A stretch of DNA of 64,000 nucleotides from Chloroflexota bacterium (GTDB lineage: Bacteria > Chloroflexota > UBA6077 > FW602-bin22 > JAMCVK01): assembly GCA_023475225.1 (NCBI GenBank), contig JAMCVK010000028.1, positions 73,962 to 137,961 on the forward strand, given 5' to 3'. Position numbers and translations under genes: made by a program. The notes beneath the pieces were generated by a model. The model had not been told where the DNA came from. It did no database searches and saw nothing but the letters and a program-made list of their open reading frames with translations. Positions 4,334 through 20,350 of this stretch are shown here, one piece after another. Within the stretch, counting starts at the first letter, position 1. Every line of letters starts with the position of its first letter.

Positions 4334-4376
4334 GTACGCCCTCCTCAAGGAAGATAGGGACGTTTCCATCGCCCAT

Positions 4377-4943
4377 TCAATTAAATCTATTCATAGCGGC
4401 AGTGATTCCGTGTTCCCAAAGATACTCGATGGCTTCCATAGCCCGCGCTAGCATCTCCTCTACCACAGGACGTTCCTCAGGCATGAAATCGCTCAGAACA
4501 TAATCAGACGGCTCTCCTTCAGCCGAGCGGCCAATACCCAGGCGCAAGCGGGCGAATTCCTCCGTTCCCAGATGATCAATGATGGATTGAACACCGTTAT
4601 GTCCTCCAGCGCTACCCCCCGGCCGGATGCGAATCTTACCCAGAGATAGATCCAGATCGTCATGAACAACGAGGAGCGCGGCTGGATCGGATTTGTAACA
4701 TTGCATCAGCCCCTGGACAGCCCGACCGCTTAGATTCATAAAAGTCTGAGGTTTAGCCAAAACCACCCTCGTTCCCCCTATCCGTCCCTCGCTTATCAAG
4801 GATCTCGCTCGCTTCAGCGTAAAGCGTAGTTCATGCCTGCGAGCCAGGAGCTCGACACACCGGAAACCAATGTTATGCCGATTGTGGGCATACATTCGGC
4901 CGGGATTGCCGAGCCCTACCAGCAATCGTAACGGTGCTACCAA
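4377..4943 (-). CDS. pth: Peptidyl-tRNA hydrolase
   Basis: Cleaves the ester bond of peptidyl-tRNAs that drop off ribosomes, recycling tRNA in the cytoplasm. The family opening LLVGLGNPG is followed by NRHNIGF with the catalytic His, then KPQTFMNLSG, VVHDDLDL with the catalytic Asp, and GGHNGVQSI. I place the start at the TTG at 4943-4941, giving about 188 residues, because GGAGG lies ten bases upstream and the conserved strand begins five residues later. A longer in-frame reading starting inside the upstream gene would add an implausible Pro/Ser-rich tail. The start lies just after the stop of the preceding membrane-anchored protein, so the two are probably translationally coupled. Confidence 0.93.
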   Translation of the reverse strand: MVAPLRLLVGLGNPGRMYAHNRHNIGFRCVELLARRHELRFTLKRARSLISEGRIGGTRVVLAKPQTFMNLSGRAVQGLMQCYKSDPAALLVVHDDLDLSLGKIRIRPGGSAGGHNGVQSIIDHLGTEEFARLRLGIGRSAEGEPSDYVLSDFMPEERPVVEEMLARAMEAIEYLWEHGITAAMNRFN

Positions 4944-4947
4944 GTTG

Positions 4948-5784
4948 TTAACGCCTCCAAATGGCGGCGATAAGCCCTGCGCAGAAGACGAGGGCTGCAC
5001 CAGCAACCCCGAAGAAAAAGGCTGGCCATAATGATTCGACCCAAAGATCAAACCGTAACCAGGATGGCCACAATGTAAATATCTCTGACGATGGTCGTCT
5101 GGTGTCAGGTTCAGGAGTGATCTCAGCCACAGATGGCGATGGGCTACCAGCAGTCACCGTTCCTCTAATAACAGGAGTCTTGAAGGGTGTAGGCGTAGGT
5201 GACGGCGGGGTGGGCGTCGGTGAAACCGTCACCGTCATCGTCGGCGTCGCCCCAGGTGTTGGTGTCATCAATAAAGTGGTCTCAACGAACTCGATGACCG
5301 CCCCAGTTCGTCCATCCACAAAGATATTCTCCGCCGGCACCCCAGAGAATCCCTCCACCGCAAGTGAATAACTCCCCAGAGGGAGACCAACAAAGGCAAA
5401 TCCCCCATCACTCGCCGAAATCGTCAAGGTTTTATAGTTATGACCCCAGAGCTTGATTACGATGCCGGCCAATCCAGCTCCAACTCGATCCAGTACTCGA
5501 CCGCGAATTGTGGCGCCACGCCCCTCGGCTGACGGAGTAAGAGGCGCATTCAATAAATAGCGCGGCACAAAATATACCGTGGAGGAGAGGGCGGGCGGAG
5601 AAGGTGTGGCTGTAACCATCGTCGTTGCTGGAGTTATAGTAGGACTCGGCTGAGCGAATGGCATCGGCAGAGCTACCACTGTATTGCCAGTGGTATTCTC
5701 CGCCGCCAAAACAGCCCCAATTCGACTCGCGCCCACCAGGGCGATGATCATCATCAGAAAACAGACGTAGTAACCTCTCTTCAT
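4948..5784 (-). CDS. Membrane-anchored protein with carboxypeptidase-regulatory-like domain and PT-rich linkers
   Basis: Secreted or surface protein of about 278 residues. It has an N-terminal signal segment (MKRGYYVCFLMMIIALVG), a Pro/Thr/Ser linker, and one beta-sandwich carboxypeptidase-regulatory-like domain (about residues 90-170, with the typical IRGRVLDRVGAGLAGIVI opening and a DGGFAFVGLPLGSYSL core). A second PT-rich linker and a C-terminal membrane helix (AFFFGVAGAALVFCAGLIAAIW) follow. The ATG at 5784 overlaps the stop of the upstream sugar transferase by one base, so this is the preferred start over one 25 codons upstream. Being last in the polysaccharide block suggests an envelope or polymer-binding role, but the domain is a generic scaffold and no activity is implied. 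Confidence 0.85.
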   Translation of the reverse strand: MKRGYYVCFLMMIIALVGASRIGAVLAAENTTGNTVVALPMPFAQPSPTITPATTMVTATPSPPALSSTVYFVPRYLLNAPLTPSAEGRGATIRGRVLDRVGAGLAGIVIKLWGHNYKTLTISASDGGFAFVGLPLGSYSLAVEGFSGVPAENIFVDGRTGAVIEFVETTLLMTPTPGATPTMTVTVSPTPTPPSPTPTPFKTPVIRGTVTAGSPSPSVAEITPEPDTRRPSSEIFTLWPSWLRFDLWVESLWPAFFFGVAGAALVFCAGLIAAIWRR

Positions 5785-7184
5785 CAATAAGCGTTCTTGT
5801 CTCCCAGAATTACGAGGAGACTGCGTATTAGGATTTTGAAATCTAGCCAGATGGTCCAATTTTCAACATACCAAAGGTCATAAGCGGTCCGTTCTTCTAT
5901 AGAAGTATCCCCCCTTAAGCCATTAACCTGCGCCCACCCCGTAATGCCGGCCTTCTCGTTATGTCGCTCTACATAGCGTGGTATTCTCCTTTGAAATTGC
6001 TCCACAAAATATGGCCGTTCCGGGCGAGGCCCAACCAGACTCATTTCTCCGATGAGGACATTGATCAGCTGAGGCAGCTCGTCTAGCGAAAAACGGCGCA
6101 AGAAAGCCCCCCAACGAGTGGTACGGGGGTCACCCTTTTTTGCCCACACCGGGCCAGTCTCGTCCTCAGCTCCTGGCCTCATTGACCGGAATTTGAGCAT
6201 CTGGAAAGGCTTCCCATCCAACCCCACCCGTTCTTGGGTATAGAAAACGGGCCCCCCTGGCGACGTCACTTTTATCAGAGCAGTGATCAACAACATGAGG
6301 GGTGATAGGAGGATTAAACCTACGGCACTAGATACTAAATCCATCATTCGCTTAATGGTTAGGTTCCAACCTCGCAGGGCTACATCTTTCACACTGATAA
6401 GAGGTAAGCCATTCAGGTCACCAATGCTCACCTCACTAGCCATCATCTGGAACAGATCCGGAAACACCTTGATGCCAACCCTAGCTCCCTGGCTCTTTGC
6501 CACCAGGTCCAACAGCTGTTTATGGGATAGATTGGGAATAGCGATGATGATTTCATCTATGCCCTGGCTCCTGATGATTGCCCCCAATTGTTCAATCTGG
6601 CCGAGCACAGGTACACCAGCTACCTGGCCCACGTCTTGATCCTCTGAGAGGAAACCCACAACGTGATAGCCGAGCCCTGGTGAACTTCTAATTTTGTCTA
6701 AGATGAGCTGCGCTGTTTCACCTGTGCCCATGATGAGGACCCTATCTCTATCAATCCCCCGAGAGCGCAACAAAGAATATAGAGAATGCAAGACGAAGCG
6801 CCCCATAGTGACCAGGATGATACTCAAGAACCAGGCTAAGGCTAACAATAAACGAGAGTAAGCAAAATCTCGTGAAGCGAAGGCGCTAGCCGCCATCATC
6901 AGAACAGTGGCAATGGAAAGGGCCACAAAAATGGCGTAGAACTCGTCAGTCCAAGAAACAGCTCGCTTGGGACGATAGAGCCCCTGGAGGGCAAAAACAA
7001 GGGGTAAGATAATCATTTGCAGACCCACTAGCCCAAGGTAGGCAGAATAGGGCTGCCATTCATCATAAGAGAAGATGTTGGCTTGGAAGCGCAGGCGATA
7101 GGCCAGCAGGGAAGCCAAATTGACCATCGCCAGGTCATTGATAAAAGTAAGAAACAGAAAGTAAGTTCCTACTCTCCGTTTCAT
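5784..7184 (-). CDS. Polyprenyl-phosphate sugar-1-phosphate transferase (WbaP/WcaJ/EpsE-like)
   Basis: Starts polysaccharide assembly by moving a hexose-1-phosphate from a nucleotide sugar to undecaprenyl phosphate at the membrane. About 466 residues: four to five N-terminal membrane helices, a Rossmann-like CoA-binding domain (VLIMGTGETAQLI, LGYHVVGFLSED), then the catalytic bacterial sugar transferase domain with KRMMDLVSSAVGLILLSPL, FKMLKFRSM-like and GRFLRRFSLDELPQL-like segments, LVGPRPERPYFV and PGITGWAQVNGLRG-like motifs. The ATG at 7184 has GAGGAGG upstream and overlaps the stop of the preceding glycosyltransferase by one base. It is the priming enzyme of this exopolysaccharide cluster. 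Confidence 0.93.
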   Translation of the reverse strand: MKRRVGTYFLFLTFINDLAMVNLASLLAYRLRFQANIFSYDEWQPYSAYLGLVGLQMIILPLVFALQGLYRPKRAVSWTDEFYAIFVALSIATVLMMAASAFASRDFAYSRLLLALAWFLSIILVTMGRFVLHSLYSLLRSRGIDRDRVLIMGTGETAQLILDKIRSSPGLGYHVVGFLSEDQDVGQVAGVPVLGQIEQLGAIIRSQGIDEIIIAIPNLSHKQLLDLVAKSQGARVGIKVFPDLFQMMASEVSIGDLNGLPLISVKDVALRGWNLTIKRMMDLVSSAVGLILLSPLMLLITALIKVTSPGGPVFYTQERVGLDGKPFQMLKFRSMRPGAEDETGPVWAKKGDPRTTRWGAFLRRFSLDELPQLINVLIGEMSLVGPRPERPYFVEQFQRRIPRYVERHNEKAGITGWAQVNGLRGDTSIEERTAYDLWYVENWTIWLDFKILIRSLLVILGDKNAY

Positions 7185-8119
7185 TAAGCTAGCCTCCTCA
7201 CGATCGCAGACAACCACACGTTACGCAATAAGGCCAGGATAGCCTGAACATAGATTCCGCCTACAATCAGGAGATTAAGCGGAAATGGTGTCGTGGACGC
7301 ATAATGCTTACGATAGAAGATCAGCATCGCACGATAAAATTCGATGACTGGCCGCCAACTATCCTGCCTGCTGCTCTCGCCCTTATAATGCAATACCTTG
7401 ACTTTCCCATTATATAACACTTTCCAACCACGCTGCTTAATTCGATAAGCCAGATCGAGATCCTCGCCATACATGAAGAACGACTCATCAAGCAATCCAA
7501 CCTGCCGCCACATCGAACTACGAATTATCATAAATGCGCCAACCACCGAGTCGACTTCCGCGACGTCGTCTGGATCAAGATAGGTCAAGTTGTAGCGGGC
7601 AAACCGACGGCTTCTCGGAAATAGCTTGCTCAGGCCGAGCATACGGTAGAAAGATACCGCAGGAGTTGGGAAACTACGGCGGCAGGCCAGATCCAAACTA
7701 CCATCCGGCCTGATCAGCTGCGGGCCCGCCGCTCCAGCATCCGGATGAGAATCCATAAACTGGATCATGTCCCTTAGGACGTAGAGCGATAAAGCGGTAT
7801 CAGGATTCAGCAACAGGATGTAGCGGGGTAACGCTGAGGATGTTTCATCATCTACAGCTGGCAACGATGGGTAACCATCGAGTATCACCCGCAAGGCGAG
7901 GTTATTAGCATAAGCATATCCCCCATTGAATGGACTCTCGATCAAACGCGCTTGGGGGAACTCCCTGCTTACCATCGTCACACTTCCATCCTTAGACGCA
8001 TTGTCTACAACAAATACCTCGTAGCTGAATCCCCCCTCACTGCTGAAAACCGTCTTAAGACAATCCCGTAGCAGATCGCAAACATTATAATTTACGATTA
8101 TGATTGCTAGATCAAGCAC
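7184..8119 (-). CDS. Family 2 glycosyltransferase (rhamnosyltransferase-like)
   Basis: Adds a sugar to the growing lipid-linked oligosaccharide on the cytoplasmic face. It has the GT2 opening LAIIIVNYNVCDLL, FVVDNASKDGS with the nucleotide-sugar Asp, and the metal-binding line ILLLNPDTAL. GAFMIIRSSMWRQVGLLDESFF MYGED (the latter part with the catalytic acid) and a short hydrophobic C-terminus that may associate with the membrane follow. The start is GTG at 8119-8117; the gene overlaps the upstream GT2 gene by eight bases. Length (311 residues) is typical. The donor and acceptor sugars cannot be told from sequence. Confidence 0.9.
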   Translation of the reverse strand: MLDLAIIIVNYNVCDLLRDCLKTVFSSEGGFSYEVFVVDNASKDGSVTMVSREFPQARLIESPFNGGYAYANNLALRVILDGYPSLPAVDDETSSALPRYILLLNPDTALSLYVLRDMIQFMDSHPDAGAAGPQLIRPDGSLDLACRRSFPTPAVSFYRMLGLSKLFPRSRRFARYNLTYLDPDDVAEVDSVVGAFMIIRSSMWRQVGLLDESFFMYGEDLDLAYRIKQRGWKVLYNGKVKVLHYKGESSRQDSWRPVIEFYRAMLIFYRKHYASTTPFPLNLLIVGGIYVQAILALLRNVWLSAIVRRLA

Positions 8120-9107
8120 GCAACCCTCTATTCTTCAGCCGCCAGAGAACGCCAACAGGGTAGCCGATCATCTTAGCGATATCACCCGTAAGACGAATGA
8201 GGGGAACGAGGAGAACAGCCTTTATCCTATCACCTCCAGAGCAGTGCAAGACCAACGGATATAGGCGTCGATAAGGACGATATAAGTAACCGGCCGCACC
8301 CAAAAAGAGCATAAGCCACCATCCTTTATACCAAAAACCAAGTAGGAGCACAAGACAGCCGATGGTATAGGCAGCATAGCGGATAAGATGGCGATGAAAC
8401 CATAGTCCAGCCTTGCCATCCCCTCGTGCATACAGATAATACTGTCTAAAAAAGTCCTTCAACGTGGAGCGAGGACGAAACAAAGCCACTGCGTCCGGAA
8501 CGAAGTGAAAACGACATCCCAAACGCCTCAGGTTCAGATCGAAGACAACATCCTCACAATAATCAAGCCACTCCGGATACCCGCCCACCTTAACCCAAGC
8601 GGCTCTTGTATAAGCCACCGATCGGCTGGAGGGCAAAAAGGATGTCGGATCGATATCCTCCACAGCAGGCAGGACCGCTGCGCCCATCGCTATCTCAAAA
8701 ATGCTTCGTGGATCGGGCTTAAAGAAACCGCTCACAACATCGATCGGCCCGCTGTCCGCTTCCCCTAAGATAGTTGCATTGCTGCTCTCAAAGGGAGCCA
8801 ATAGTTTGGCCAACCAATCTGGGGCGAGACGCACCCCTGCATCGGTTGAGACGATGATCTCGCCACTTGCCGCCTCGACGGCCCGATTACGTCCCTGGGA
8901 GATGTTACAACCAGGCACCACAAGCAATTTGATGGGCGCACCTTCGGCTATAAACGAATTGACTCGCTCTACCGTTCGATCGGTCGAGCCACCGTCGACG
9001 ATGACGATCTCTTCGGGTTGGCGCGTCTGAGACAGCAGAGAGGAAAGCATATCATCGATAGTACCTTCCTCGTTTTTAACTGTCATAATGACTGACGCTC
9101 GCACCAA
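8112..9107 (-). CDS. Family 2 glycosyltransferase (ExoA-like)
   Basis: A GT2 enzyme with SVIMTVKNEEGTIDDML, IVDGGSTDRTVE, the GEIIVSTDAGVRL metal-binding segment, and a C-terminal pair of hydrophobic stretches (about residues 240-275) as in ExoA-type enzymes. The start is a TTG at 9107-9105 or the next codon, GTG at 9104. AAGGAGG lies five and eight bases upstream respectively, so both are possible. It follows the large GT39 gene by 24 bases and overlaps the next glycosyltransferase by eight bases, so it is part of the same operon. Sugar specificity is unknown. Confidence 0.88.
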   Translation of the reverse strand: MVRASVIMTVKNEEGTIDDMLSSLLSQTRQPEEIVIVDGGSTDRTVERVNSFIAEGAPIKLLVVPGCNISQGRNRAVEAASGEIIVSTDAGVRLAPDWLAKLLAPFESSNATILGEADSGPIDVVSGFFKPDPRSIFEIAMGAAVLPAVEDIDPTSFLPSSRSVAYTRAAWVKVGGYPEWLDYCEDVVFDLNLRRLGCRFHFVPDAVALFRPRSTLKDFFRQYYLYARGDGKAGLWFHRHLIRYAAYTIGCLVLLLGFWYKGWWLMLFLGAAGYLYRPYRRLYPLVLHCSGGDRIKAVLLVPLIRLTGDIAKMIGYPVGVLWRLKNRGLRA

Positions 9108-9131: not shown

Positions 9132-11651
9132 CTAGCGAATCCATAGCGACCCCAGATCAACCGTTGCCCGAAGAACCCTCTCCCCAGCCATTTTCCCAGG
9201 CCCGCTATCCTGTTTCAGATACAAAACGATCTTGTACTCCCCAGGCGCAAGCCCGTGTAGGGCGATCCTTTCCTGATCGCGAATCAAGTCACCAACGTGC
9301 CACTTACTTGTGGTATACGCACCCCCCATCGGCTCATCCTCTGTGGTACGAGTGACAACCCCATTCGTACCAACCAGCCCTATTTGCCGCGCGTAATCCT
9401 CCTCAATGTCGCCTAAGGCCTGCCAGTACAGGACCAGATGAGCTATGTCGGCTGGGGCAAAGTTAACCTCCGCGGAGTCGCTACCCAGCTTATAGAGCCC
9501 GTAACCGAGAAATTTCACCTTGTTGTCAAGAAGCGTTTTACCCGATAAACGTGGCATACGGAGCGCCTCGACCTTCGGTGGTGTGTTGGACCGAAGCACC
9601 GTTACCCGCCCAAACAAGAAGCGGTCGGCTGTAGCGCGCCCTTGTTCATCGAGGATACTCAAGCGCTTACCCGTATCTGTTTCATAGAGGCCTACCTCAA
9701 TCTGATATTCGCCGGGCGGGGTGCCCAGGAGAATAGGTATCCCATGACGATCCTCAACCATATCGGCGACAGCCCAGGAATCGGTCGGCTTGGTTCCTCC
9801 TGCTGGTTCACTATCATGTTGCCCACAGATGAACTCACGTTGATCAAGCAAATGTACAAAGACAGTATAGCGCTTCTTCAATGGCTCTAGCGCTTGCCAA
9901 AATAACGTCAGTGGAAGGATGTCGCCAGGTTTTGGTGACTGTGCCACCACACGGTAGCCCAGTAAGACGACTTCATTACCGAAATTTACCCTTACTTTAT
10001 CTGTGGTAGCCTCCCCCACCTCGCCTGCCGCCAAGGAATAAAGGCATAGCCGTACGCCACCATACCAGGTGTTGTTTGCCTTGTAAGCGTGCTTATCCAG
10101 CCAGCCCTCAATGAAACCGTTGGGATCGGCCTCCTGCACCGCCCAGAGCACCAACCACACCCGCTTGTGCCCACCAGCAATCCTCCGCAACTCCCCCTCC
10201 GTATCCCTCTCATCTATCGGCCGCTGCCGCGGCAAAGGGTAAACGTCTCCCTCCCCACGATAATAGTAACGAAAGATCTCCACTTGCCCCGGAGCGTTCA
10301 GGACAATAGCATCCCCCTCCCGAAAGGACGACTCGATCTGCCGCACCAAACCCCGATAGTCATCGCGAGCATACTTCGGATCATAATAATAGGCCAGCAA
10401 TGAGCGGGCACTGGAAGTCAAAATGAGCAGGACACAAATAGCAATGGCCCCCATCGAGAGAGCCGTCCGGGTCAACCTCATCCCGGAAATGGGTGGTAAA
10501 CACCTCACGATCCTATCTAATCTATCCAGCCCCAAACCCAGGAGTAAACAATACCCAGGAACAGCCAACAGGAGAAACTTGGGATTGTACATTGGGCGAC
10601 GTAAGGATAACAGATAAAGAACCAATACGGGGAACAAAACGTAGGCAAGGTTGAAGGCAAGAGCCCGAAGGCGATCAGGCCTTCCTACCTGCGCAGGCAG
10701 ATACATCAATAGAAGGCTAGCCACTAGCAAGGCTAAGAAGGCGACTTCTTCGACATTCGATGCCTCATAGGAAAGCCCAAAAGAGAAAGCCACAAAAATC
10801 TTGTGCAATAAAGTGAAGAATGAAAATGGTTCGCTGACACTCGGCCAGACGGCCAGCTGTTTCAGCGATACGGCTAACCAGGGAACATAAAGGAGTAGAA
10901 GTATACCCTGAGCTATCACCCATTTGATGGCCAGACTGCGCCGTGGCCAAAAGGTGAGAGCCAGGAAAAAGTTCTGAGCTAAAACGATGGTGAAGGCAAA
11001 ATAATGAGAGTACAGCGCCGCAGCAGTGACCAAAACATAGACGATCCACACCCACAAATCATCCCATCGTCCGACCTTCCCTATCCCCGTCGAGGATAAG
11101 CTGCTGCGCAGTGGAGAGGTAGACGGACCTTGGCTATCCACGGTGATAATTCGATAGCCCCTGGTCAGCAATCTCAGAAATAGATACATCGATAAAGCAG
11201 CGAGGAAGGTTACCTGCATATACATCCTCGCTTCCTGAGAATAGTAGACTAGGAGAGGAGAAAAAGTAGCTATGAAGCCTGCGAAATAGCCCGCTCCCAG
11301 ATTGAATAAACGCTCCCCAATTTTGTAGGTTAGAGCCACAGTTAGAACGCCATAGATCAGGGAGAGATAACGCAGGCCAATTTCCGAGTTCCCGGAAAGG
11401 GCTGTCCAGAAATGCAGAATGTAGTAATAAAGCGGTGGATGAATATCCCCTGCGGCATCATGGGTGATGGTGGCCAAATCCCGTGGAGCCATCAGCGCAC
11501 TTATTCCTTCATCGTACCACAGGCTTTGTGCCTCTATCCGCCAGAGGCGCAAGCCAAAGGCGATGACGAGGATGGCCATTAGGATCATTATGCTTATATA
11601 ATTCGCTCGCCCTGCTGACCGGCCTCCCATCCTATTTCTCTTCCTGATCAA
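9132..11651 (-). CDS. GT-C (GT39-like) membrane glycosyltransferase with C-terminal beta domains
   Basis: Integral membrane enzyme predicted to use a lipid-linked sugar donor outside the membrane. About the first 420 residues hold roughly ten membrane helices, with the first external loop carrying the acidic motif LWYDEGISAL and DIHPPLYYYILHFWT, hallmarks of the ArnT/PMT-type GT-C fold. After the helices is an external domain (about 440-560). Two related beta-sandwich repeats follow, marked by VVLLGYRVV...LPLTLFWQALEP and VKFLGYGLY...HLVLYWQAL. The start is TTG at 11651, overlapping the stop of the preceding gene; an ATG seven codons on is an alternative. A 314-base stretch at 10093-10406 is nearly identical to the end of the upstream gene (separate repeat entry). 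Confidence 0.88.
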   Translation of the reverse strand: MIRKRNRMGGRSAGRANYISIMILMAILVIAFGLRLWRIEAQSLWYDEGISALMAPRDLATITHDAAGDIHPPLYYYILHFWTALSGNSEIGLRYLSLIYGVLTVALTYKIGERLFNLGAGYFAGFIATFSPLLVYYSQEARMYMQVTFLAALSMYLFLRLLTRGYRIITVDSQGPSTSPLRSSLSSTGIGKVGRWDDLWVWIVYVLVTAAALYSHYFAFTIVLAQNFFLALTFWPRRSLAIKWVIAQGILLLLYVPWLAVSLKQLAVWPSVSEPFSFFTLLHKIFVAFSFGLSYEASNVEEVAFLALLVASLLLMYLPAQVGRPDRLRALAFNLAYVLFPVLVLYLLSLRRPMYNPKFLLLAVPGYCLLLGLGLDRLDRIVRCLPPISGMRLTRTALSMGAIAICVLLILTSSARSLLAYYYDPKYARDDYRGLVRQIESSFREGDAIVLNAPGQVEIFRYYYRGEGDVYPLPRQRPIDERDTEGELRRIAGGHKRVWLVLWAVQEADPNGFIEGWLDKHAYKANNTWYGGVRLCLYSLAAGEVGEATTDKVRVNFGNEVVLLGYRVVAQSPKPGDILPLTLFWQALEPLKKRYTVFVHLLDQREFICGQHDSEPAGGTKPTDSWAVADMVEDRHGIPILLGTPPGEYQIEVGLYETDTGKRLSILDEQGRATADRFLFGRVTVLRSNTPPKVEALRMPRLSGKTLLDNKVKFLGYGLYKLGSDSAEVNFAPADIAHLVLYWQALGDIEEDYARQIGLVGTNGVVTRTTEDEPMGGAYTTSKWHVGDLIRDQERIALHGLAPGEYKIVLYLKQDSGPGKMAGERVLRATVDLGSLWIR
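10093..10406. repeat. 314-base near-identical tract, copy A (in GT39 gene)
   Basis: Matches 11715-12028 with a constant offset of 1622, no gap and five mismatches by hand count, while flanks of the two genes are far less similar. In protein terms it spans the external domain with PLPRQRPIDERDTEGEL and WLVLWAVQEADPNGFIEGW. It looks like a gene-conversion tract between two homologous genes. Confidence 0.9.
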
Positions 11652-14600
11652 GAAACCTCATAGAGAAGAAGCCGAACCGTACCAAATAAGCGCTCCCTAA
11701 TCAGATGGCCATGTTTATCCAGCCAGCCCTCAATGAAACCGTTGGGATCGGCCTCCTGCACCGCCCAGAGCACCAACCACACCCGCTTGTGCCCACCAGC
11801 AATCCTCCATAGCTCCCCCTCCGTATCCCTCTCATCTATCGGCCGCTGCCGCGGCAAAGGGTAAACGTCTCCCTCCCCACGATAATAGTAACGAAAGATC
11901 TCCACTTGCCCCGGAGCGTTCAGGACAATAGCATCCTCCTCCCGAAAGGACGACTCGATCTGCTGCACCAAACCCCGATAGTCATCGCGAGCATACTTCG
12001 GATCATAATAATAGGCCAGCAATGAGCGACTGGTAAAGAATCCGACCAAGGCCAAGCATAAGATAAGAGACCCAAGACCTGTTATGATCGCTATCTGCTG
12101 GAAATTCTCCTTCACTTTGCATCGTATAAATCCGCAGATGGGACTCAAAACCATCGGTAGGGAAAAGGCGAAAGAATTTATGCCTATCGCCAGCCAAAGA
12201 TAATAAGCCGGCACAGCTAGAATCAGAAGGCGGGGATTATCAATCGGATTGTACAAAGGGTGCCATAACCACAAGGCATAAGTGACCACGATGGGAACCA
12301 GACACCAGAAGGCCATTAAGGCTTGAGGGCGTAGATCCTCTGCGAATCTCCTGCCCAAAGTATTCACCTCACAGATCCCCCAGGATAAGTCTCGGAGATA
12401 CCGCGCCAACGGCCAGAAACAGCCCGCCAGAAGAAAAAACAGGAAAACAGCCGCAGCTTTATTGGTTAGCGTAGCATCAGCTGAGAGACCAAAGCTGAAG
12501 ACGACAAAGGCCCGCCTTAAGACTGAACCAAAGGCAACGTATTCCCCAACGCCCGGGCCGCCGCGCCCTATGACCTGTCGGCCTACATAGAGTAGCCAGG
12601 GCAGGCAAAGCAGAACAATAACCAATTGGGACTTTAGCCAGGAGCGCAACCTCCGGTCACGCCGAGAAAGGACGACCAGCACATAAACGTTTTGCACCAA
12701 TAGAACGGCTACGGCCAGGTAGTGGGTATAGAGAGAAAGGGTCGCCACGATAACGTAAGACAGCCACAGATGCGTTCTGCCTTCCTCCCCATCCGAGCGT
12801 TCTAAAATAAGCCTAATAAAGAGGTACATAGACAACGTGGAAAGGAGAAGCAGCAGGGAATACATGCGCGCTTCTTGAGAATAGTAGATCAATAGCGGTG
12901 CCACAGCAGCAAGCCAGGCAGCTACGAGCCCAACACCCCACCCCATCAAGCGAGTGCCAACTTTGGCCAGCAGTGGTAGCAAAGCCACACCAATCACTGC
13001 TGAAAACAAGCGTAAGACAAACTCGGATGTACCAAAAAAGATAGTCCAGATACGGAGCAGGTAGTAATACAGCGGTGGATGAATGTCCATCGCCGCAGCC
13101 TGGGTGATAGCCGAGAGATCACGCGTCATCAGCGCCGCCGTTACTCCCTCATCATACTCCAGGCTCTGGCCATTCAGTAAATATATGCGCAGAGCAAAAC
13201 CGCAGGCGACGATCAACAGCAGTGCCAAGAGTAAACTGATCTGCTGGGGCGACCGCGGCGCGGATTCCGGGGTAACCGTCGTATGTTCTCTTCGCCATCG
13301 CTGAGACCAGGCCAGACCACCAAGTAAGACTAACCCAACCCCCATCCCTATTAGGGATCCTATCAGAGGAAGGTTATTCGATCCCTTGATAACAACAATG
13401 CCGTCCAGCACACAGCGCTTGCCCGACGAGGATTCATTCGTCGTCGCTGCAACCCGCAGCTCGGTAAAATGCACATCATCACTTAATCCATCGGCCACTG
13501 GTACTCGCTCTTGCCAGCGCACCTCTGGATTATAAAGATCAAGATACGCTCGCTTTTGTTCATCCCTCGGTAGCAGATTAGCCCCCTCTGACGAACCGTC
13601 GATGGTTACCAAGAGCCTTCCAGCAGTGGGGCCCTTTCGAACCACCAAATCCAGCTCATTTCCCTTAAAGAGGAACCTGACGGCGTCGCCAGCTGTGTCA
13701 CTAAAAGCATAGTGGCCCAGGCCGGCTCTGTGGTCGGTGGCTCGTTGCCAGTGACCATCGAAGTTCAACGCCCAGTGGTCCTCCTGATGATAACCAAGGT
13801 ACATCACTCGAGGCCCTGTGGCCAACTCTTTTAGCGCTTTATAAACGGGATGAGGATGGAAATCACTCCCGACGATGTTAAAATAATACCGCTGCTGCTC
13901 TTTATCTGCCTCATTAACCGCTCGAAAATGCCAGAGGTTCACCACACCCATCCACGGCCATTCCTCCTGGATCCGTTGATAGGCTCTAACAGTGTACTCT
14001 GCTTGCTGTTCGCGAGTGACCCGCCCGAAAAGAGGTTCAGCTGGAAAATCAGGGGGAAGAGCACACCAACCCATCTCCGAACCCCAGATCGGCTTTCCCG
14101 CATCACCATTGCGCACCATAATCTCTCGCGTCAGAATGGGCCGCGAGAAGTTGATGTCTCTCTCTGTGGCTTGCAGCGTTACATCGGGACCAGAGCGCAA
14201 TCCATAGGGATTGACGCTCATTATGTCAAAGTACGGTTTAGCCCCGGCATCGTACATCTGTTGCAAGAAGATGAGGTCGTTTATTCCTCGCTCACTGTAC
14301 TCGATCGTTGGGGCCAGGGCTGCGGCAAGAATAACAGCCTTCGGATCAGCCTCTTTCGCCCGCACATAAGCGATCTTCAGCAGTCGTACATACTCTTTAG
14401 CATTCGGTACCTGCCCACCCCATTCAAAGGCGAGGTTTGGCTCGTTCCAAATCTGATAATACCTGACCTTCCCCTTGTAACGACTGACAATGGTGTAGAC
14501 AAAATCACCGAAGTCATCAAAATTATCCGGTGGCGTTTCTAACTTTGACTTGCCCGGGCGGGCCCATTCAGGTGAGGTATCTATGCGAAGGATCAAACCC

Positions 14601-15037
14601 AAGCCATACTCGTCGGCCAGATCGACGATGCGGTCGTATTTCTTCCAGGTATCCACGTTGTTGTGACGGTCATCTTGGTACAGGCCCTTGGCCGGACGTT
14701 CGATCTCATACCAAAGGACCTGCTGTTTGATCCAGCCGAACCCAGCTTCCTTGATCATTTGCAAAGTGCGGCGGATCTCACTCTCCTGCACTTCCTGCTC
14801 TAAGAAGACATTGATGCCGTAAGGATTGAATCCTGTATAAGGCATCGGCTCATAGTCGGCTGTTTCTACCTGTCGAGCTGTGAGCCTACTGTAGACGGCA
14901 ATTATCCTATCCCTGACTTCGTATCCGATGATCGGTTTCACTGTATGCCATAGAGGCTGGCGGAAGACGATCCCAAGGACGGTGATGGCTAAGAATAACG
15001 CTGCAAGCCACAGAGAGAGACGCCTGATCCTCACCAA
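11648..15037 (-). CDS. Fusion of an extracytoplasmic glycoside-hydrolase domain and a GT-C (GT39-like) glycosyltransferase
   Basis: A 1129-residue fusion. After an N-terminal membrane anchor comes a TIM-barrel glycoside hydrolase domain (about 50-400) resembling GH39/GH5-type clan A enzymes. It has YYQIWNEPNLAFEWGG with the acid/base Glu and PIWGSEMGW with a probable nucleophile Glu. A beta-rich segment (about 410-550) follows, then a membrane helix and a GT-C domain with external loop LEYDEGVTAALM and MDIHPPLYYYLLRIWT. The N-terminal domain is clearly homologous to the neighbouring lipoprotein. The start is TTG (15037) followed directly by GTG; GAGG lies upstream. A single protein could both cut and transfer glycan at the outer face. 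Whether the hydrolase domain is active is inferred only from retained Glu residues. Confidence 0.88.
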   Translation of the reverse strand: MVRIRRLSLWLAALFLAITVLGIVFRQPLWHTVKPIIGYEVRDRIIAVYSRLTARQVETADYEPMPYTGFNPYGINVFLEQEVQESEIRRTLQMIKEAGFGWIKQQVLWYEIERPAKGLYQDDRHNNVDTWKKYDRIVDLADEYGLGLILRIDTSPEWARPGKSKLETPPDNFDDFGDFVYTIVSRYKGKVRYYQIWNEPNLAFEWGGQVPNAKEYVRLLKIAYVRAKEADPKAVILAAALAPTIEYSERGINDLIFLQQMYDAGAKPYFDIMSVNPYGLRSGPDVTLQATERDINFSRPILTREIMVRNGDAGKPIWGSEMGWCALPPDFPAEPLFGRVTREQQAEYTVRAYQRIQEEWPWMGVVNLWHFRAVNEADKEQQRYYFNIVGSDFHPHPVYKALKELATGPRVMYLGYHQEDHWALNFDGHWQRATDHRAGLGHYAFSDTAGDAVRFLFKGNELDLVVRKGPTAGRLLVTIDGSSEGANLLPRDEQKRAYLDLYNPEVRWQERVPVADGLSDDVHFTELRVAATTNESSSGKRCVLDGIVVIKGSNNLPLIGSLIGMGVGLVLLGGLAWSQRWRREHTTVTPESAPRSPQQISLLLALLLIVACGFALRIYLLNGQSLEYDEGVTAALMTRDLSAITQAAAMDIHPPLYYYLLRIWTIFFGTSEFVLRLFSAVIGVALLPLLAKVGTRLMGWGVGLVAAWLAAVAPLLIYYSQEARMYSLLLLLSTLSMYLFIRLILERSDGEEGRTHLWLSYVIVATLSLYTHYLAVAVLLVQNVYVLVVLSRRDRRLRSWLKSQLVIVLLCLPWLLYVGRQVIGRGGPGVGEYVAFGSVLRRAFVVFSFGLSADATLTNKAAAVFLFFLLAGCFWPLARYLRDLSWGICEVNTLGRRFAEDLRPQALMAFWCLVPIVVTYALWLWHPLYNPIDNPRLLILAVPAYYLWLAIGINSFAFSLPMVLSPICGFIRCKVKENFQQIAIITGLGSLILCLALVGFFTSRSLLAYYYDPKYARDDYRGLVQQIESSFREEDAIVLNAPGQVEIFRYYYRGEGDVYPLPRQRPIDERDTEGELWRIAGGHKRVWLVLWAVQEADPNGFIEGWLDKHGHLIRERLFGTVRLLLYEVS
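11715..12028. repeat. 314-base near-identical tract, copy B (in GH-GT39 fusion gene)
   Basis: Partner of the tract at 10093-10406. The mismatches change three residues (Arg/Trp, Gly/Glu, Arg/Gln), and the reading frame is preserved in both genes. Confidence 0.9.
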
Positions 15038-15050
15038 GAATAGACCTCAA

Positions 15051-16304
15051 TTAATTACGCATATTCTTCAAGGCTGTATAGGCAGGGCGAACAGTGCCAT
15101 CAGGATTAGTGATCGACCAGTAGTATTGTTCCTGGGCTGGCGTCCAGTCTGGGCTGGCAATATAAATGACCGTCATCGCCCCTATCCATGGCCGCCAATG
15201 TTCTTTAGCATACTGAAAAGCACGTACAAGGTAGTCAGCCTTTTCCGCCTCAGATACGCTCTGCCATTTGTATGGTGAGTCAGGCCTGGGGTCACTCGTC
15301 CAACCGAATTCTAATATGGCGATGCGTTTTTGCTCATCACCATACTTGACCATTATCTTCCGCAGGTCCTCCACGTGGCGGAAGCAATAGATCCGTCCTG
15401 CACCAGGTTCATTATGATCGTATCTCGGATCATAGGCCACCTCATCAGGCGACAGCTCTGGTGGCGCCTTATACCCTGCGGCGTGAGCACCCAGCATATC
15501 AAAATAATCCTTTGCGCCTTCCTCGTACATCTGCTTCACAAATTCCATATCCGGCATAGCGATGGCCCCAGAAGCCGTCGTCGGCGCCAGGCCAGCGCTG
15601 ATAACTATAGCCTGCGGATCAGCCTTCTTAATGGACTGGTAAGCCAACTTCAAGAGGGTTACATACTCCTTTACATTTGGCGGCCGTCCTCCCCATTCCC
15701 GCGCCAGGTTCGGCTCGTTCCATATCTCATAAGCATCTATCTGACCATAAGGTGAACCGTTCTTATAGCGACTGGCAAGGGCATACACAAAGTCAGCGTA
15801 ATCCTGCAGATTTTTAGGGGGACTGCTCAAGGCCGAAGCTGAAGCAGGATCAATGGCCCACTTGGGAGAAATATCTACCCGTGCGATTATGCGCAAACCA
15901 TATCTCTTGGCTGCCGACACGATGCGGTCTGGCTCATTCCATTCGAATTGCCCCTTACCCTTGCCCTCGATATAGTTCCATTGAAACATCTGCTTGATCC
16001 AGGTAAATCCACCATCCTTGGCCAGCTTCAAATCCCTCTCCAGGTACGGGCTCCCCCACAGCATAACGTGCACTGCTCGGGCTGTACTATCCATCCAGGC
16101 CAATGGGGGATAGATCTCCTTTGCAGTAAGGTGCGTCTGTGTCGGCTTCGCCGTAGGCGATGGGCTGGATGTCGACTGCACCGTAGGCGATGGACTGGAT
16201 GTCGGCTGCACCGATCCCCCTATACAGCCCACTAGAAGTGGTAACAGTAAAACAATCATTAAGACAGCACTGATCAAACCTTTACTGCGAAGGTCGTTCC
16301 ACAT
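15051..16304 (-). CDS. Lipoprotein glycoside hydrolase (GH39/GH5-like)
   Basis: Secreted and lipid-anchored: signal peptide with lipobox LLVGC (Cys about 27), then a Pro/Ser/Thr linker with a ten-residue repeat, then a TIM-barrel domain. Visible motifs are DAYEIWNEPNLAREWGGR (acid/base Glu) and IAILEFGWTSD (candidate nucleophile Glu). The ATG at 16304 is chosen because AGGAGG lies seven bases upstream and the signal peptide starts there; an upstream in-frame start 39 codons earlier has no support. It is a paralogue of the hydrolase half of the next gene, 14 bases away. Probably trims or modifies the exported polysaccharide. The exact linkage it cuts is unknown. Confidence 0.87.
   Translation of the reverse strand: MWNDLRSKGLISAVLMIVLLLPLLVGCIGGSVQPTSSPSPTVQSTSSPSPTAKPTQTHLTAKEIYPPLAWMDSTARAVHVMLWGSPYLERDLKLAKDGGFTWIKQMFQWNYIEGKGKGQFEWNEPDRIVSAAKRYGLRIIARVDISPKWAIDPASASALSSPPKNLQDYADFVYALASRYKNGSPYGQIDAYEIWNEPNLAREWGGRPPNVKEYVTLLKLAYQSIKKADPQAIVISAGLAPTTASGAIAMPDMEFVKQMYEEGAKDYFDMLGAHAAGYKAPPELSPDEVAYDPRYDHNEPGAGRIYCFRHVEDLRKIMVKYGDEQKRIAILEFGWTSDPRPDSPYKWQSVSEAEKADYLVRAFQYAKEHWRPWIGAMTVIYIASPDWTPAQEQYYWSITNPDGTVRPAYTALKNMRN
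16151..16210. repeat. Two tandem 30-base units in lipoprotein linker
   Basis: Units 16151-16180 and 16181-16210 differ at two positions. They encode the repeated Ser-Ser-Pro-Ser-Pro-Thr linker of the glycoside-hydrolase lipoprotein. Confidence 0.85.
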
Positions 16305-16446
16305 GAAGATTCCTCCTACCACAATTTCATCGAAGTGGCTTTCCCCACATCGGAGGCAGAGTATAACCCTCTTGTCCGAATTTATCAACGTACCACCATT
16401 CTCAAAAGCTGATACCAGCACAGTCGGCTTTGAGGCTCGCGCTCTC

Positions 16447-17664
16447 CTAGGATATCTCCAGTAAGGAGCAATAAAAGCGCTCTAATCGGGGAACAAGCAC
16501 CCGCCAATCGTATTTTATCTCTACAAGCTGGCGGGCCTTACGGCCTAGCCCTCTGCCCCTTTCCGGATCGCGAAGCAAAGCCAGCACCTTTTCGGCGAAT
16601 TCAGCTGCATCATTGGCAATCAACACGTTTTCATCGGGGGTAACCTCGATCCCCTCACAACCAAGCGAGGTGGAGACGACAGGAGTACCGAGAGCCATAG
16701 CCTCCAGTACCTTCAGTCGAACCCCTCCGCCAATACGCATGGGCACTACACAGGCTGCTGCTCGCCCAACATAAGGACGTATATCAGCCACGGGACCACT
16801 AACAATTACACCTGGTATCTGCCCCAAGCGGAGAACCTCTCTCTTGGGGTCCCGACCAACGATGTAGAAGCGCAGGTCTGGCACTTCAGCACGAAGCCGA
16901 GGTAATATCTCTCGACAAAACCAGGTTACAGCATCAACGTTCGGTCGAAAGTCCATCGTTCCACTAAAGACAAGGAACGGCTCCCTCTCACTATTAAGTG
17001 GGGCGAATTCCGCTAAATCGACACCATTGCTGACCACTGTTGCTTTTAAGTTGGGGACGAGGGATTGTAGCATCCTTCGATCTACCTCGGATACGGCCAC
17101 TACCCCATCTACCAGACGACAAATCTTGGCCTCATAACGCCGTAGCTTCCACCATTGGATAAACGAATAAAAGGCTCCGACCCAAGTGGCTGGACGGGAT
17201 AGGTCGGTCTCAAAGGCCCGACGTTGCAACACATATTCGGCATTATGGGCATCCAGAACAACCAAGGGGCGCCTGTTCGTGGTCTTTCCCTTCCAGGCCA
17301 TCTCCCAAAGGGGAGCCATTTCCAATCCCTCAATCTGGATCACGTCGAACTCCTCAGCGGCTAGTAAGGATGAAAGACGCTGGACTAAGGCCAGGGAAGA
17401 AAGGCGCAGAGTCAGGTCTGGCTGCTCTGAAAAGATCACACTGAACGCCCGACGAAGGGACGAACGAGTTGGTGGGGGTATCACCTCAACCCGCACACAG
17501 TAACGACGCAGCACGGCGAGCGCTGCTTTATCCGCTGGTTCACCAAAGGAAACAAGAGTCAGCTCATGACGGGCAGCAAGGTTTTCGATGATATTGAAAT
17601 TCCTTATGGCCGTCCCCTTGTGGGGAGGATAAGGGACATGAGGAGTCAAGAACAGAATCCTCAC
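16447..17664 (-). CDS. Family 4 glycosyltransferase
   Basis: Retaining GT-B fold glycosyltransferase of about 405 residues. It has the N-terminal VRILFLTPHVPYPPHKGTA glycine-rich strand and a C-terminal nucleotide-sugar domain (FSGTMDFRPNVDAVTWF, YIVGRDP). MRIGGGVRLKVLEAMALGTPVVST carries the E-x7-E motif. The start is GTG at 17664-17662, overlapping the TGA of the upstream GT4 gene, with an AGGAGG further upstream. A longer frame inside the upstream gene is less likely. It acts in repeat-unit assembly of the polysaccharide. Donor unknown. Confidence 0.9.
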   Translation of the reverse strand: MRILFLTPHVPYPPHKGTAIRNFNIIENLAARHELTLVSFGEPADKAALAVLRRYCVRVEVIPPPTRSSLRRAFSVIFSEQPDLTLRLSSLALVQRLSSLLAAEEFDVIQIEGLEMAPLWEMAWKGKTTNRRPLVVLDAHNAEYVLQRRAFETDLSRPATWVGAFYSFIQWWKLRRYEAKICRLVDGVVAVSEVDRRMLQSLVPNLKATVVSNGVDLAEFAPLNSEREPFLVFSGTMDFRPNVDAVTWFCREILPRLRAEVPDLRFYIVGRDPKREVLRLGQIPGVIVSGPVADIRPYVGRAAACVVPMRIGGGVRLKVLEAMALGTPVVSTSLGCEGIEVTPDENVLIANDAAEFAEKVLALLRDPERGRGLGRKARQLVEIKYDWRVLVPRLERFYCSLLEIS

Positions 17665-18791
17665 GCTGCTGATACCCTCCTGTATACCTCTAAGGTCTGT
17701 CTGGCTGTTTGCTCCCACGAGAATTGCTTGGCCCGCTCCAGTCCTTTACGCTGTAAATCCGCCCGAAGTGCGTTATCAACCAACAGGCGCTGCATCACCA
17801 GCGCCAATTGCTCAAAGTCGTTTGGATCAACCTGCACAGCAGCCTCACCCACCACCTCAGGTAGCGAAGAACAGTTTGAGACGATCACCGCTGTACCACA
17901 GGACATCGCTTCCAACGCCGGTAACCCAAATCCCTCATAGAGAGAGGGCATAATTAAGGCTAAGGCACCGTTGTAAAGGTAGAGCAAATCATCGGCCGTG
18001 ACCGCTCCCACAAAAATTACACTCTTTTCCAGTTGTAGAGTCTGCACCAGGGCGAAGATCTCCTCATAAAGCCATCCCCTCGCGCCAGCGATAACTAAAC
18101 TGGGCAATTGCCTTAGGCTGGTGCCCGCCCCTTGCTGTCTCCTCAGAAGTTCATATGCCCTAAGCAGCGTGGGTAGATTTTTCCGCGGCTCAAGAGTGCC
18201 CACAAATAAAAAGAATGCGTCTTTAAGCCTGAAACGCGACCACAGCTCCGAACATACCTGCTCAGCATCGACGATTGAGCGAAAGATAGCGTCGGCAGCT
18301 TCGTAAATCACCGTGATTTTTGTTTCGGGAACGCCAAGTTGTTCCCTGAGGTCGCGCTTTGTGCTCTCTGAGACAGCGATGATCCCCTCGGCGCTCTCTA
18401 CTGCTTGCCTTATCTGTCCATAATAGCGCTTACTCTCCGCCGTAAGCAGCTGCGGATAATGCAGAAAGGCCAGGTCGTGAACCGTGATGACCGATTTGCA
18501 CCGTCGCCGAAACGGAGGAATGAAATCGGGACTGTGCAATATGTCCAGGCCAAGAGGAATGAGCTCAAGCGGCAGCAGAAATTGCTCAAGACGATGATGA
18601 CAAGGTGTCCAAAGAAAACTCCGCTTGAAAGCAGCGGCGGGAAATAAAGGGCGTCTATCCCGCGCACTTTGCAAGACGATCGGCTCGATCGTAGTAGCAA
18701 TATTAGCAAGCCCCTTCAGTAAACCCAAAATATAGGTACTGATACCACCGGGCCGATAACGCACCAACCGGGCATCAATGCCGACCCGCAT
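17661..18791 (-). CDS. Family 4 glycosyltransferase (mannosyltransferase-like)
   Basis: GT-B fold enzyme of about 376 residues with MRVGIDARLVRYRPGGIST at the N-terminus and VHDLAFLHYPQLLT mid-protein. FVGTLEPRKNLPTLLRAY and IMPSLYEGFGLPALEAMSCGTAVIVSN (the GFGLP variant of the E-x7-E donor motif) follow. This pattern is common in WbaZ/MtfB-type mannosyl- or rhamnosyltransferases. The ATG at 18791 overlaps the stop of the O-antigen ligase by one base, so it was preferred to a reading that starts 60 codons earlier in that gene. Confidence 0.91.
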   Translation of the reverse strand: MRVGIDARLVRYRPGGISTYILGLLKGLANIATTIEPIVLQSARDRRPLFPAAAFKRSFLWTPCHHRLEQFLLPLELIPLGLDILHSPDFIPPFRRRCKSVITVHDLAFLHYPQLLTAESKRYYGQIRQAVESAEGIIAVSESTKRDLREQLGVPETKITVIYEAADAIFRSIVDAEQVCSELWSRFRLKDAFFLFVGTLEPRKNLPTLLRAYELLRRQQGAGTSLRQLPSLVIAGARGWLYEEIFALVQTLQLEKSVIFVGAVTADDLLYLYNGALALIMPSLYEGFGLPALEAMSCGTAVIVSNCSSLPEVVGEAAVQVDPNDFEQLALVMQRLLVDNALRADLQRKGLERAKQFSWEQTARQTLEVYRRVSAA

Positions 18792-20350
18792 CAGACGGAT
18801 TCCTTGACCTGCTGGAGCCTCTCTTCGATCGCCATCTGTCCCAGCCGCACTGACACCATAGTCAAGCCTACGAACAGCCAGAAAAGAGCGATGGCATGGG
18901 GAAACCGCAAGTTGAAAAAGTGATGGTCGAACAGGCCAGTGGTGAGGGCCCCAAACATAGCAGCCAGACAACTCAGCAAAATAGTTTGTAACTCAGCATC
19001 GGGAATGCGATTGAGTACCCGTAGACCATGCCAGAAGAGCAAGCCCATAATCAACAGGAACACAGCTAAGCCGATTAACCCCATCTCCTCGGCCATTAGG
19101 AGATAGATGCTGGATACACCGATGTAAAGATCGATAGATGGGGCAGCACCAAAGCCGACGCCGAACCAAGGATAGGTGGCAATCAAGCGAAAAGCATCCT
19201 TGTACTCCCCCAAGCGCATGGCCGCAGCCTTATCCTGAGCCATGAATCCTGACTCCAAATGCCCCAAGAACGGTTCTGCCTGTGGCAGAAGCCCAAAATA
19301 TAGAGCTGCTCCCAGGAGCACAAAAAGCACCCATAGCCTTCTATATTTGACTGTAGCGACGAAGATGGTAGCTGCCGCCAACCCCACCCAGGCGCTGCGG
19401 GATCGCGTCAATAACAGGCAGGCGACAATAAGGGTGAAGAGCACGGCCAGTCCCCATCGCTTTGCCAGTGCTGCCCAGGCCGATTTTTTACCAAATAAGG
19501 CCGGTAGCGGCGACCGTGAGACAAGATAGGTCACAGCTACGCTGCCCGTCAACATCAATGTCGCTCCTAAGATATTGGGGTCAATTGAGGTTCCATTGGC
19601 ACGCAGGATCTTCGTGCCAGCGATGTAACGCAGGATATCCTGCCAACCAGAAGGGTAACCAATTACACGCAGCGATGACATAAGACGAACCGTCATTGCT
19701 GTTGGCAAAAAATAGAGGACAAGCCCAATCAAAGCAGCTACACTGCCAGCTAACACAAGACCCAGAAGCACCTGCTGCAATTGCTGCTTCGTCCGCACGC
19801 AATTAAGCACCCCAAAGAAAAGGAGAATACTATTAATCAATTTCAAGAAGAGACGGGTTATCTCAGGTGAGTCAGAATAGCCAGTTCCAAGAACGAAGGA
19901 GACGCCAGCCAGGAAAATGAATAGCAAAATGAAGAGATCAAGTGGCGAGGTCTGTAACCTCTGCCCAGGATGTGTAAGGAAACGGATCAACCAAACAAGA
20001 AGAAGGATAGTCAGAGTAGCATCGAGAAAGGTGAGCTTAACTGTACCGATAGGGAGTGGGATGACGGCGAATGGCAATAGACAGGCGACGCCTACGATGG
20101 TCAGCAGGCCAATCTGCGTGTTCAGCAGCATAGCCATACCCAGCAGTAGCCCGATGATTCCGGCTATGGCGAAGGGCGGAGTCACAGCGGCGGTTAAGGA
20201 TCCGACCACAGCTCCTAACACTACAGCCAGGGCCATCAGTGCTAGGCGCGCTCGCCACTCATCATCAATCCCCATCCACGGTGCTCTTCTTGCTTTGACT
20301 CTGTCGAATAACATCCCAATCTGCCTTGGCCCGCTGTCCTGCTGGGCCAT
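18791..20350 (-). CDS. O-antigen ligase / polymerase family membrane protein
   Basis: A 519-residue polytopic membrane protein with about eleven to twelve hydrophobic segments and the large periplasmic-type loop of the Wzy/WaaL family (about 330-410). The loop contains LTRSRSAWVGL and the conserved YPWFGVGFGAAPS stretch just before the last helices. It would polymerise or ligate the lipid-linked oligosaccharide outside the membrane. First gene of the polysaccharide operon: an extended -10 promoter lies about 40 bases upstream of its ATG. The next gene overlaps it by one base. Polymerase and ligase cannot be separated by sequence alone. Confidence 0.88.
   Translation of the reverse strand: MAQQDSGPRQIGMLFDRVKARRAPWMGIDDEWRARLALMALAVVLGAVVGSLTAAVTPPFAIAGIIGLLLGMAMLLNTQIGLLTIVGVACLLPFAVIPLPIGTVKLTFLDATLTILLLVWLIRFLTHPGQRLQTSPLDLFILLFIFLAGVSFVLGTGYSDSPEITRLFLKLINSILLFFGVLNCVRTKQQLQQVLLGLVLAGSVAALIGLVLYFLPTAMTVRLMSSLRVIGYPSGWQDILRYIAGTKILRANGTSIDPNILGATLMLTGSVAVTYLVSRSPLPALFGKKSAWAALAKRWGLAVLFTLIVACLLLTRSRSAWVGLAAATIFVATVKYRRLWVLFVLLGAALYFGLLPQAEPFLGHLESGFMAQDKAAAMRLGEYKDAFRLIATYPWFGVGFGAAPSIDLYIGVSSIYLLMAEEMGLIGLAVFLLIMGLLFWHGLRVLNRIPDAELQTILLSCLAAMFGALTTGLFDHHFFNLRFPHAIALFWLFVGLTMVSVRLGQMAIEERLQQVKESV

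Follow-up and report, generated by a model that had tools for sequence, protein, structure and literature searches.

We found that two adjacent GT-C glycosyltransferase genes in a Chloroflexota genome, the products of an old duplication that have since diverged to synonymous saturation, were later homogenized over about 314 bases, and we attribute this to ectopic (intrachromosomal) gene conversion between them, with a probability of roughly 0.92. The homogenized segment encodes, in frame, most of an extracytoplasmic alpha/beta domain, and each gene has kept its own membrane core and C terminus. The genes lie in a window of 64,000 nucleotides (the whole stretch of DNA analyzed), corresponding to bases 73962-137961 of contig C28 in a draft genome of 2.74 Mb, 50 contigs, and 96.85% completeness, whose nearest named relatives are metagenome-assembled Chloroflexota, Anaerolineae included. 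The features concerned are the following:

9132-11651, minus strand: gene 1, 839 amino acids, GT-C glycosyltransferase (open reading frame; Pfam PMT_2, E 2e-13; structure model m3344f9eda90c)
11648-15037, minus strand: gene 2, 1129 amino acids (open reading frame; Pfam PMT_2, E 3.9e-12; Cellulase, GH5, E 1.6e-4, below cut-off)
10093-10406, minus strand: tract copy in gene 1, residues 416-519
11715-12028, minus strand: tract copy in gene 2, residues 1004-1107
10187, 10188, 10190, 10315, and 10342 (span 10187-10342), minus strand: the five differences between the copies, in gene 1 coordinates
15051-16421, minus strand: separate glycoside hydrolase, kin of the N-terminal part of gene 2 (open reading frame; Pfam Cellulase, E 2.9e-7)
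16447-20350, minus strand: upstream neighbors, two GT4 glycosyltransferases and a Wzy_C/O-antigen-ligase-like protein
5784-9107, minus strand: downstream neighbors, two GT2 glycosyltransferases and a WcaJ-type sugar phosphotransferase (open reading frames), made up of the next three entries
8112-9107, minus strand: GT2 glycosyltransferase (Pfam GT2)
7184-8119, minus strand: putative GT2, assigned by eye without a profile scan
5784-7217, minus strand: WcaJ-type sugar phosphotransferase (Pfam Bac_transf; TIGR03023, 476 bits against a cut-off of 411)

Gene 1 and gene 2 belong to an exopolysaccharide-type cluster, in which a Wzy_C protein, two GT4 enzymes, the glycoside hydrolase, gene 2, gene 1, two GT2 enzymes, and the WcaJ-type phosphotransferase follow one another in that order. 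The two GT-C genes overlap by 4 bases. Both pass the Pfam cut-off for PMT_2 (26.1 bits), with 51.3 and 47.1 bits, and by profile they are PMT_2/ArnT-like GT-C glycosyltransferases, with putative transferase activity using a lipid-linked sugar donor. An acidic pair in the first extracytoplasmic loop (D47 E48), which we take to be the GT-C catalytic motif, is nearly invariant in our alignment A1. In gene 2, a glycoside-hydrolase-like part (residues ~1-575) is fused in frame to the GT-C part (residues ~576-1129), which stops shortly past the tract. We name the former only "glycoside-hydrolase-like" because its score against Cellulase (PF00150, 21.7 bits) falls under the cut-off of 23.5, which the neighboring gene at 15051-16421 passes with 30.7.

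The cluster recurs in relatives as GT4, a glycoside-hydrolase-like protein, usually one GT-C or none, GT2, GT2, and a sugar transferase. In 12 of 12 relatives' loci compared, a set without locus L111 of G020 (where the GT-C is split over frames), the hydrolase-like gene and the GT-C that follows it do not share a frame and are separated by one or more stops; among the compared loci, the in-frame fusion seen in gene 2 occurs only in the window. One genome of the same order as the source, G006 (contigs C3 and C145), carries both GT-C genes: a gene-2-type GT-C after a hydrolase-like gene, and a gene 1 orthologue before the GT2 genes. G006 is a draft with a record coverage of 1.65, and its gene 2 GT-C is divided between two contigs, the matched part being interrupted by a single TGA; we infer the adjacency and intactness of its GT-C genes. 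The two G006 paralogues also each carry, within the reading frame, a 77-base block of a dispersed repeat (L054, 8562-8638 and 10342-10418), 91% alike and seemingly in the same loop. In whole or in part, the block matches the G006 genome 67 times, with the next-best copy at 83%.

Base-by-base comparison of 10093-10406 with 11715-12028 gave five mismatches over 314 bases at an offset of 1622, and matching drops to approximately chance within a few bases outside either edge, so that the length, mismatch count, offset, and sharp ends reported in the sequence-only reading all stand. BLAST delimits the match as 317 bases with 6 mismatches. Codon phase is identical in the two genes. All five mismatches are transitions, and three change an amino acid (gene 1 state first, gene 2 state second): R437Q (10342), G446E (10315), and R489W. 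Positions 10187, 10188, and 10190, clustered inside four bases, account for R489W and for a synonymous change of the adjoining Leu codon, within which two of the five differences fall. Five differences are too few to show selection in either direction. The longest exact match within the tract spans 124 bases (10191-10314). In a codon alignment of the two genes, the observed segment score was 294, a value reached in none of 10,000 column shuffles, the largest of which gave 34.

This tract is by far the strongest repeat of the 64 kb window. Five others were listed: a 158-base match (70%), a 128-base match between the same two genes (72%), two short inverted matches (26 and 36 bases), and a 219-base inverted match (51194-51411 with 63114-63331, 68%) that is unconnected with the tract. 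A DNA search of the whole assembly revealed no third copy, and when the window was compared with ten other stretches of the same genome that bear GT-C or related beta-sandwich genes, nothing beyond the tract itself reached at least 50 bases above 80% identity. Nor did scanning 48 loci, drawn from relatives and the source genome, for direct repeats (606,611 bases, some overlapping; at least 80 bases at 80% identity) uncover a comparable tract. It yielded three repeats unlike the tract, namely short-spaced ones in L063 and L065 and a tandem duplication in L141. The last of these (3959-7792 on G004:C3, in a region chosen for its GT-C genes) is an exact tandem duplication of 1,917 bases and is either very recent or an assembly artefact.

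Identity between the two genes changes abruptly at the tract edges. Before the tract they share 36.1% of amino acids and 48.5% of nucleotides (374 codons), within it 97.2% and 97.8% (106 columns), and after it 30.0% and 43.3% (20 codons), which bears out the initial description of two genes diverged outside a common segment. Divergence is far from equal inside and outside: pS is 0.715 before, 0.027 within, and 0.747 after the tract. With dS at ~0.03 in the tract and synonymous sites saturated outside it, the conversion appears recent relative to the duplication. The tract is also the most conserved stretch in 8 of 8 pairs compared. In G006, gene 1 and gene 2 are 37.6% identical in amino acids before, 49.1% (59.4% in nucleotides) within, and 30.4% after the corresponding segment. 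Conservation alone thus gives the tract 49%, not 97%, and the identity in the window goes beyond it.

Phylogenetic trees of the two regions conflict in the manner characteristic of conversion, with orthologues grouping outside the tract and window paralogues grouping inside it. The before-tract tree comprised 376 columns and 20 rows and the tract tree 106 columns and 22 rows; L073 and G020c, without the N-terminal part, entered the tract tree only, and W_C50, taken from a wrong frame, entered neither. Before the tract, window gene 2 joins G006 gene 2 (bootstrap 99), and window gene 1 joins G004 and G009 (86), then L067 (94); G006 gene 1 is placed with low support (44 and 39). Within the tract, the two window copies are sisters (bootstrap 93), and trees forcing a copy to its own orthologues were rejected (AU p 0.00219 for gene 2 and 0.000236 for gene 1). 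The tails again resemble those of the orthologues, that of window gene 1 (AYK...WYGGVRL) being like G006 gene 1 and that of window gene 2 (FGTVR) like G006 gene 2. The locus displays the hallmark of conversion: abrupt near-identity, in homologous register, between paralogues diverged on both sides. The central claim of the sequence-only reading, that one segment was recently copied onto its homologue, is upheld both by the contrast between low dS and saturation and by the rejection of the no-exchange trees.

Neither AU tests nor site likelihoods singled out a donor, the AU p values being 0.135 for gene 2 and 0.062 for gene 1 and the sign of the difference shifting with the backbone, and in the best tract tree the window pair falls outside both the gene 1 and the gene 2 clades. 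We consider it unlikely that conversion was recurrent and two-way (concerted evolution), with the tract a patchwork of the two ancestral versions built up by repeated exchange, and the domain needed by both enzymes, for example for binding a common partner or acceptor. On visual inspection, the tract is like G006 gene 1 in its first half (VRQIESSFREGDA...NAPGQVEIF) and like G006 gene 2 in its second (PLPRQRPID, RVWLVLWA, DPNG, IEGWL), and allowing two donors improved the fit by 5.48 log units, which was matched in 0 of 60 and 0 of 60 simulations under a single donor. However, the trees compared in that test differed also in backbone. On a fixed backbone, the two-donor gain was 3.28, which was reached in 2 of 100 simulations with gene 2 as donor, 6 of 100 with gene 1 as donor, 21 of 100 with G006 gene 1, and 22 of 100 on the best tree; the case for a two-donor mosaic is weak at these frequencies, and we do not claim one. 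The 77-base blocks of the G006 paralogues, which match each other (91%) better than the next-best copy does (83%), would speak for recurrence, but with 67 full or partial matches in that genome the repeat may have landed twice. Against recurrence, G006, the one other genome found to carry both genes, has a tract that is not homogenized (49% amino acid identity), although recurrence in other lineages may have occurred. Quite unlikely, in our estimation, is the more specific scenario in which the tandem GT-C pair swaps its ectodomain segment repeatedly and in both directions to suit one shared partner or growing glycan. Under that scenario, continuing exchange would keep a mosaic tract alike in the two genes, and these polysaccharide enzymes would share the domain as an interchangeable module.

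An improbable alternative invokes a third source, either another genome or a lost paralogue, that replaced the segment of one gene and was then copied to the other, or that replaced both. The best tract tree lies 8 to 11 log units above those with a forced single donor, although neither of the latter was rejected. The assembly search gave no third copy, which counts against this alternative. GC3 is higher in the tract than upstream in both window copies (0.68/0.65 versus 0.56/0.58), and the difference is below 0.1 in 20 of 22 rows, the exceptions being window gene 1 (+0.12) and G006 gene 1 (+0.11). The latter rises without a near-identical tract, and as a mark of the donor or of GC-biased conversion GC3 proved uninformative. 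A third source would, moreover, require one additional step.

Assembly or polishing error, raised at the outset as a means of refutation, is very unlikely. The genome is a draft in 50 contigs, and the 124-base exact match is comparable to assembly k-mer sizes, the range of which includes ~124 bases. Against this, five differences distinguish the copies, both genes are open and in frame, and the flanks on either side join each copy to the gene order and tails of its own orthologues; a collapse would remove a copy rather than create one, and outside the tract the paralogues are too unlike (~48% in nucleotides) to cause mis-mapping of reads. Strong purifying selection acting on a domain inherited from the common ancestor, with no exchange, can be dismissed despite the tract being the best-conserved stretch in every pair, because synonymous sites are 97% identical within it and saturated on both sides; the unconverted G006 pair, at only 49%, and the rejection of no-exchange trees likewise count against it.

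Returning to gene conversion, we considered which part of the protein was exchanged, using the predicted structure of gene 1, on which the GT-C fold test was made. The model (mean pLDDT 83.3) adopts an ArnT/PMT/oligosaccharyltransferase (GT-C) fold, with a membrane core running through a helix at residues 392-423, an alpha/beta domain at ~431-539, and two beta-sandwiches. Residues ~9-541 match ArnT (5f15; Foldseek E 1.7e-9; Z 25.4, rmsd 6.9, 429 aligned) and STT3 (8agb; Z 28.0, rmsd 7.8, 433 aligned). This part of gene 1 is thus like the GT-C enzymes ArnT, PMT, and oligosaccharyltransferase in predicted fold; sequence identity to them is ~9-15%, and gene 1 adds the C-terminal beta-sandwich domains. 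Searching solved structures by sequence, with alignment A1 as the query, returned no match at E 0.001. Mapped onto the model, the tract would take in the final part of the last membrane helix and the small alpha/beta domain minus its final two strands. The sequence-only reading had spoken of one external domain; this holds insofar as the tract takes in most of the ectodomain following the last membrane helix, but it ends before the last two strands.

The last beta-sandwich of gene 1 (residues ~708-839, encoded at 9132-9530) resembles the carbohydrate-binding domain of the Wzt O-antigen exporter (8dne_C: Z 12.4, rmsd 2.3, 108 aligned; 6o14_B: Z 12.2, rmsd 2.4, 116 aligned), a predicted likeness that would fit glycan binding by the gene 1 enzyme. 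Matches of gene 1 within its own genome (G000) lie on contigs C49, C37, C39, C30, C21, C24, C19, C14, and C50. For 23 of the 35, the match involves the beta-sandwich part alone (residues ~530-800), and nine of these are on C49. These matches make up a large family of a single module in this genome.

RecA-type intrachromosomal recombination between neighboring homologous segments is the ordinary explanation for a tract of this kind. Here, recombination between sister copies may have begun where the paralogues are most alike; the tract is the best-conserved stretch of these proteins and hence the likeliest site. One version would then have replaced the other in a non-crossover event, because crossing over would have removed or doubled the intervening 1.6 kb. 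The sequence-only reading suggested that selection may favor equal surface domains; three of the five differences alter the protein, and the high conservation of the stretch would by itself make it the likeliest place for recombination. The converted segment would have been tolerated if the alpha/beta domain has the same job in both enzymes, and this ectodomain is probably interchangeable between them. A later crossover between the copies, the deletion envisaged in the sequence-only reading, is predicted to fuse gene 2, up to the tract, with the tail of gene 1, in frame given the coordinates and shared codon phase. No joining of a gene 2 N-terminal part to a gene 1 tail was seen in the relatives' loci compared for gene order.

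A search of titles and abstract beginnings found no paper on conversion between bacterial GT-C genes, and the closest parallels come from other protein families. Gene conversion between the release factors RF1 and RF2, outlined for Bacteroidia and Chloroflexi (Ishikawa et al. 2015, PMC4530459), likewise transferred ~100 residues, amounting to almost an entire domain, between bacterial paralogues that had duplicated long ago and diverged. One of those cases falls in the same phylum, Chloroflexi, and the conversion was judged neutral, the domain performing the same task in both proteins. Unlike the enzymes described here, these are not membrane proteins, and the events, which are old, were recognized from protein trees with their direction resolved; the present genes are adjacent and their tract is almost identical in DNA. 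As described for methanogens, mtrA-1 and mtrA-2 are paralogues of the same operon, one of them a gene fusion, in which only the shared soluble domain is homogenized and the membrane parts differ (Wang et al. 2015, PMC4632066), much as in our pair. That protein is archaeal and different, and its conversion has recurred over a very long time in many species, whereas we show one event in one genome. Prokaryotic concerted evolution as presented by Wang and Chen (2018, PMC6053082) is similar in that paralogues of the same genome are closer than orthologues, but it is recurrent and long-lasting, in contrast to a single partial tract in one genome. Finally, the PE/PPE/ESX genes of Mycobacterium tuberculosis also undergo intrachromosomal conversion between paralogues, in accounts that concern antigen- and virulence-associated families of one species (PMC12046097, PMC13061034) rather than old paralogues of an exopolysaccharide cluster.

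With mtrA and RF1/RF2, conversion of domain size is already known for old paralogues, and the present case is real and ordinary in kind. It is of value as a clear-cut and recent illustration of how paralogues in bacteria remain partly alike, with one soluble domain reset in a single step while membrane cores and tails diverge to about one-third identity, and as a caution that GT-C phylogenies based on the C-terminal part can mislead.
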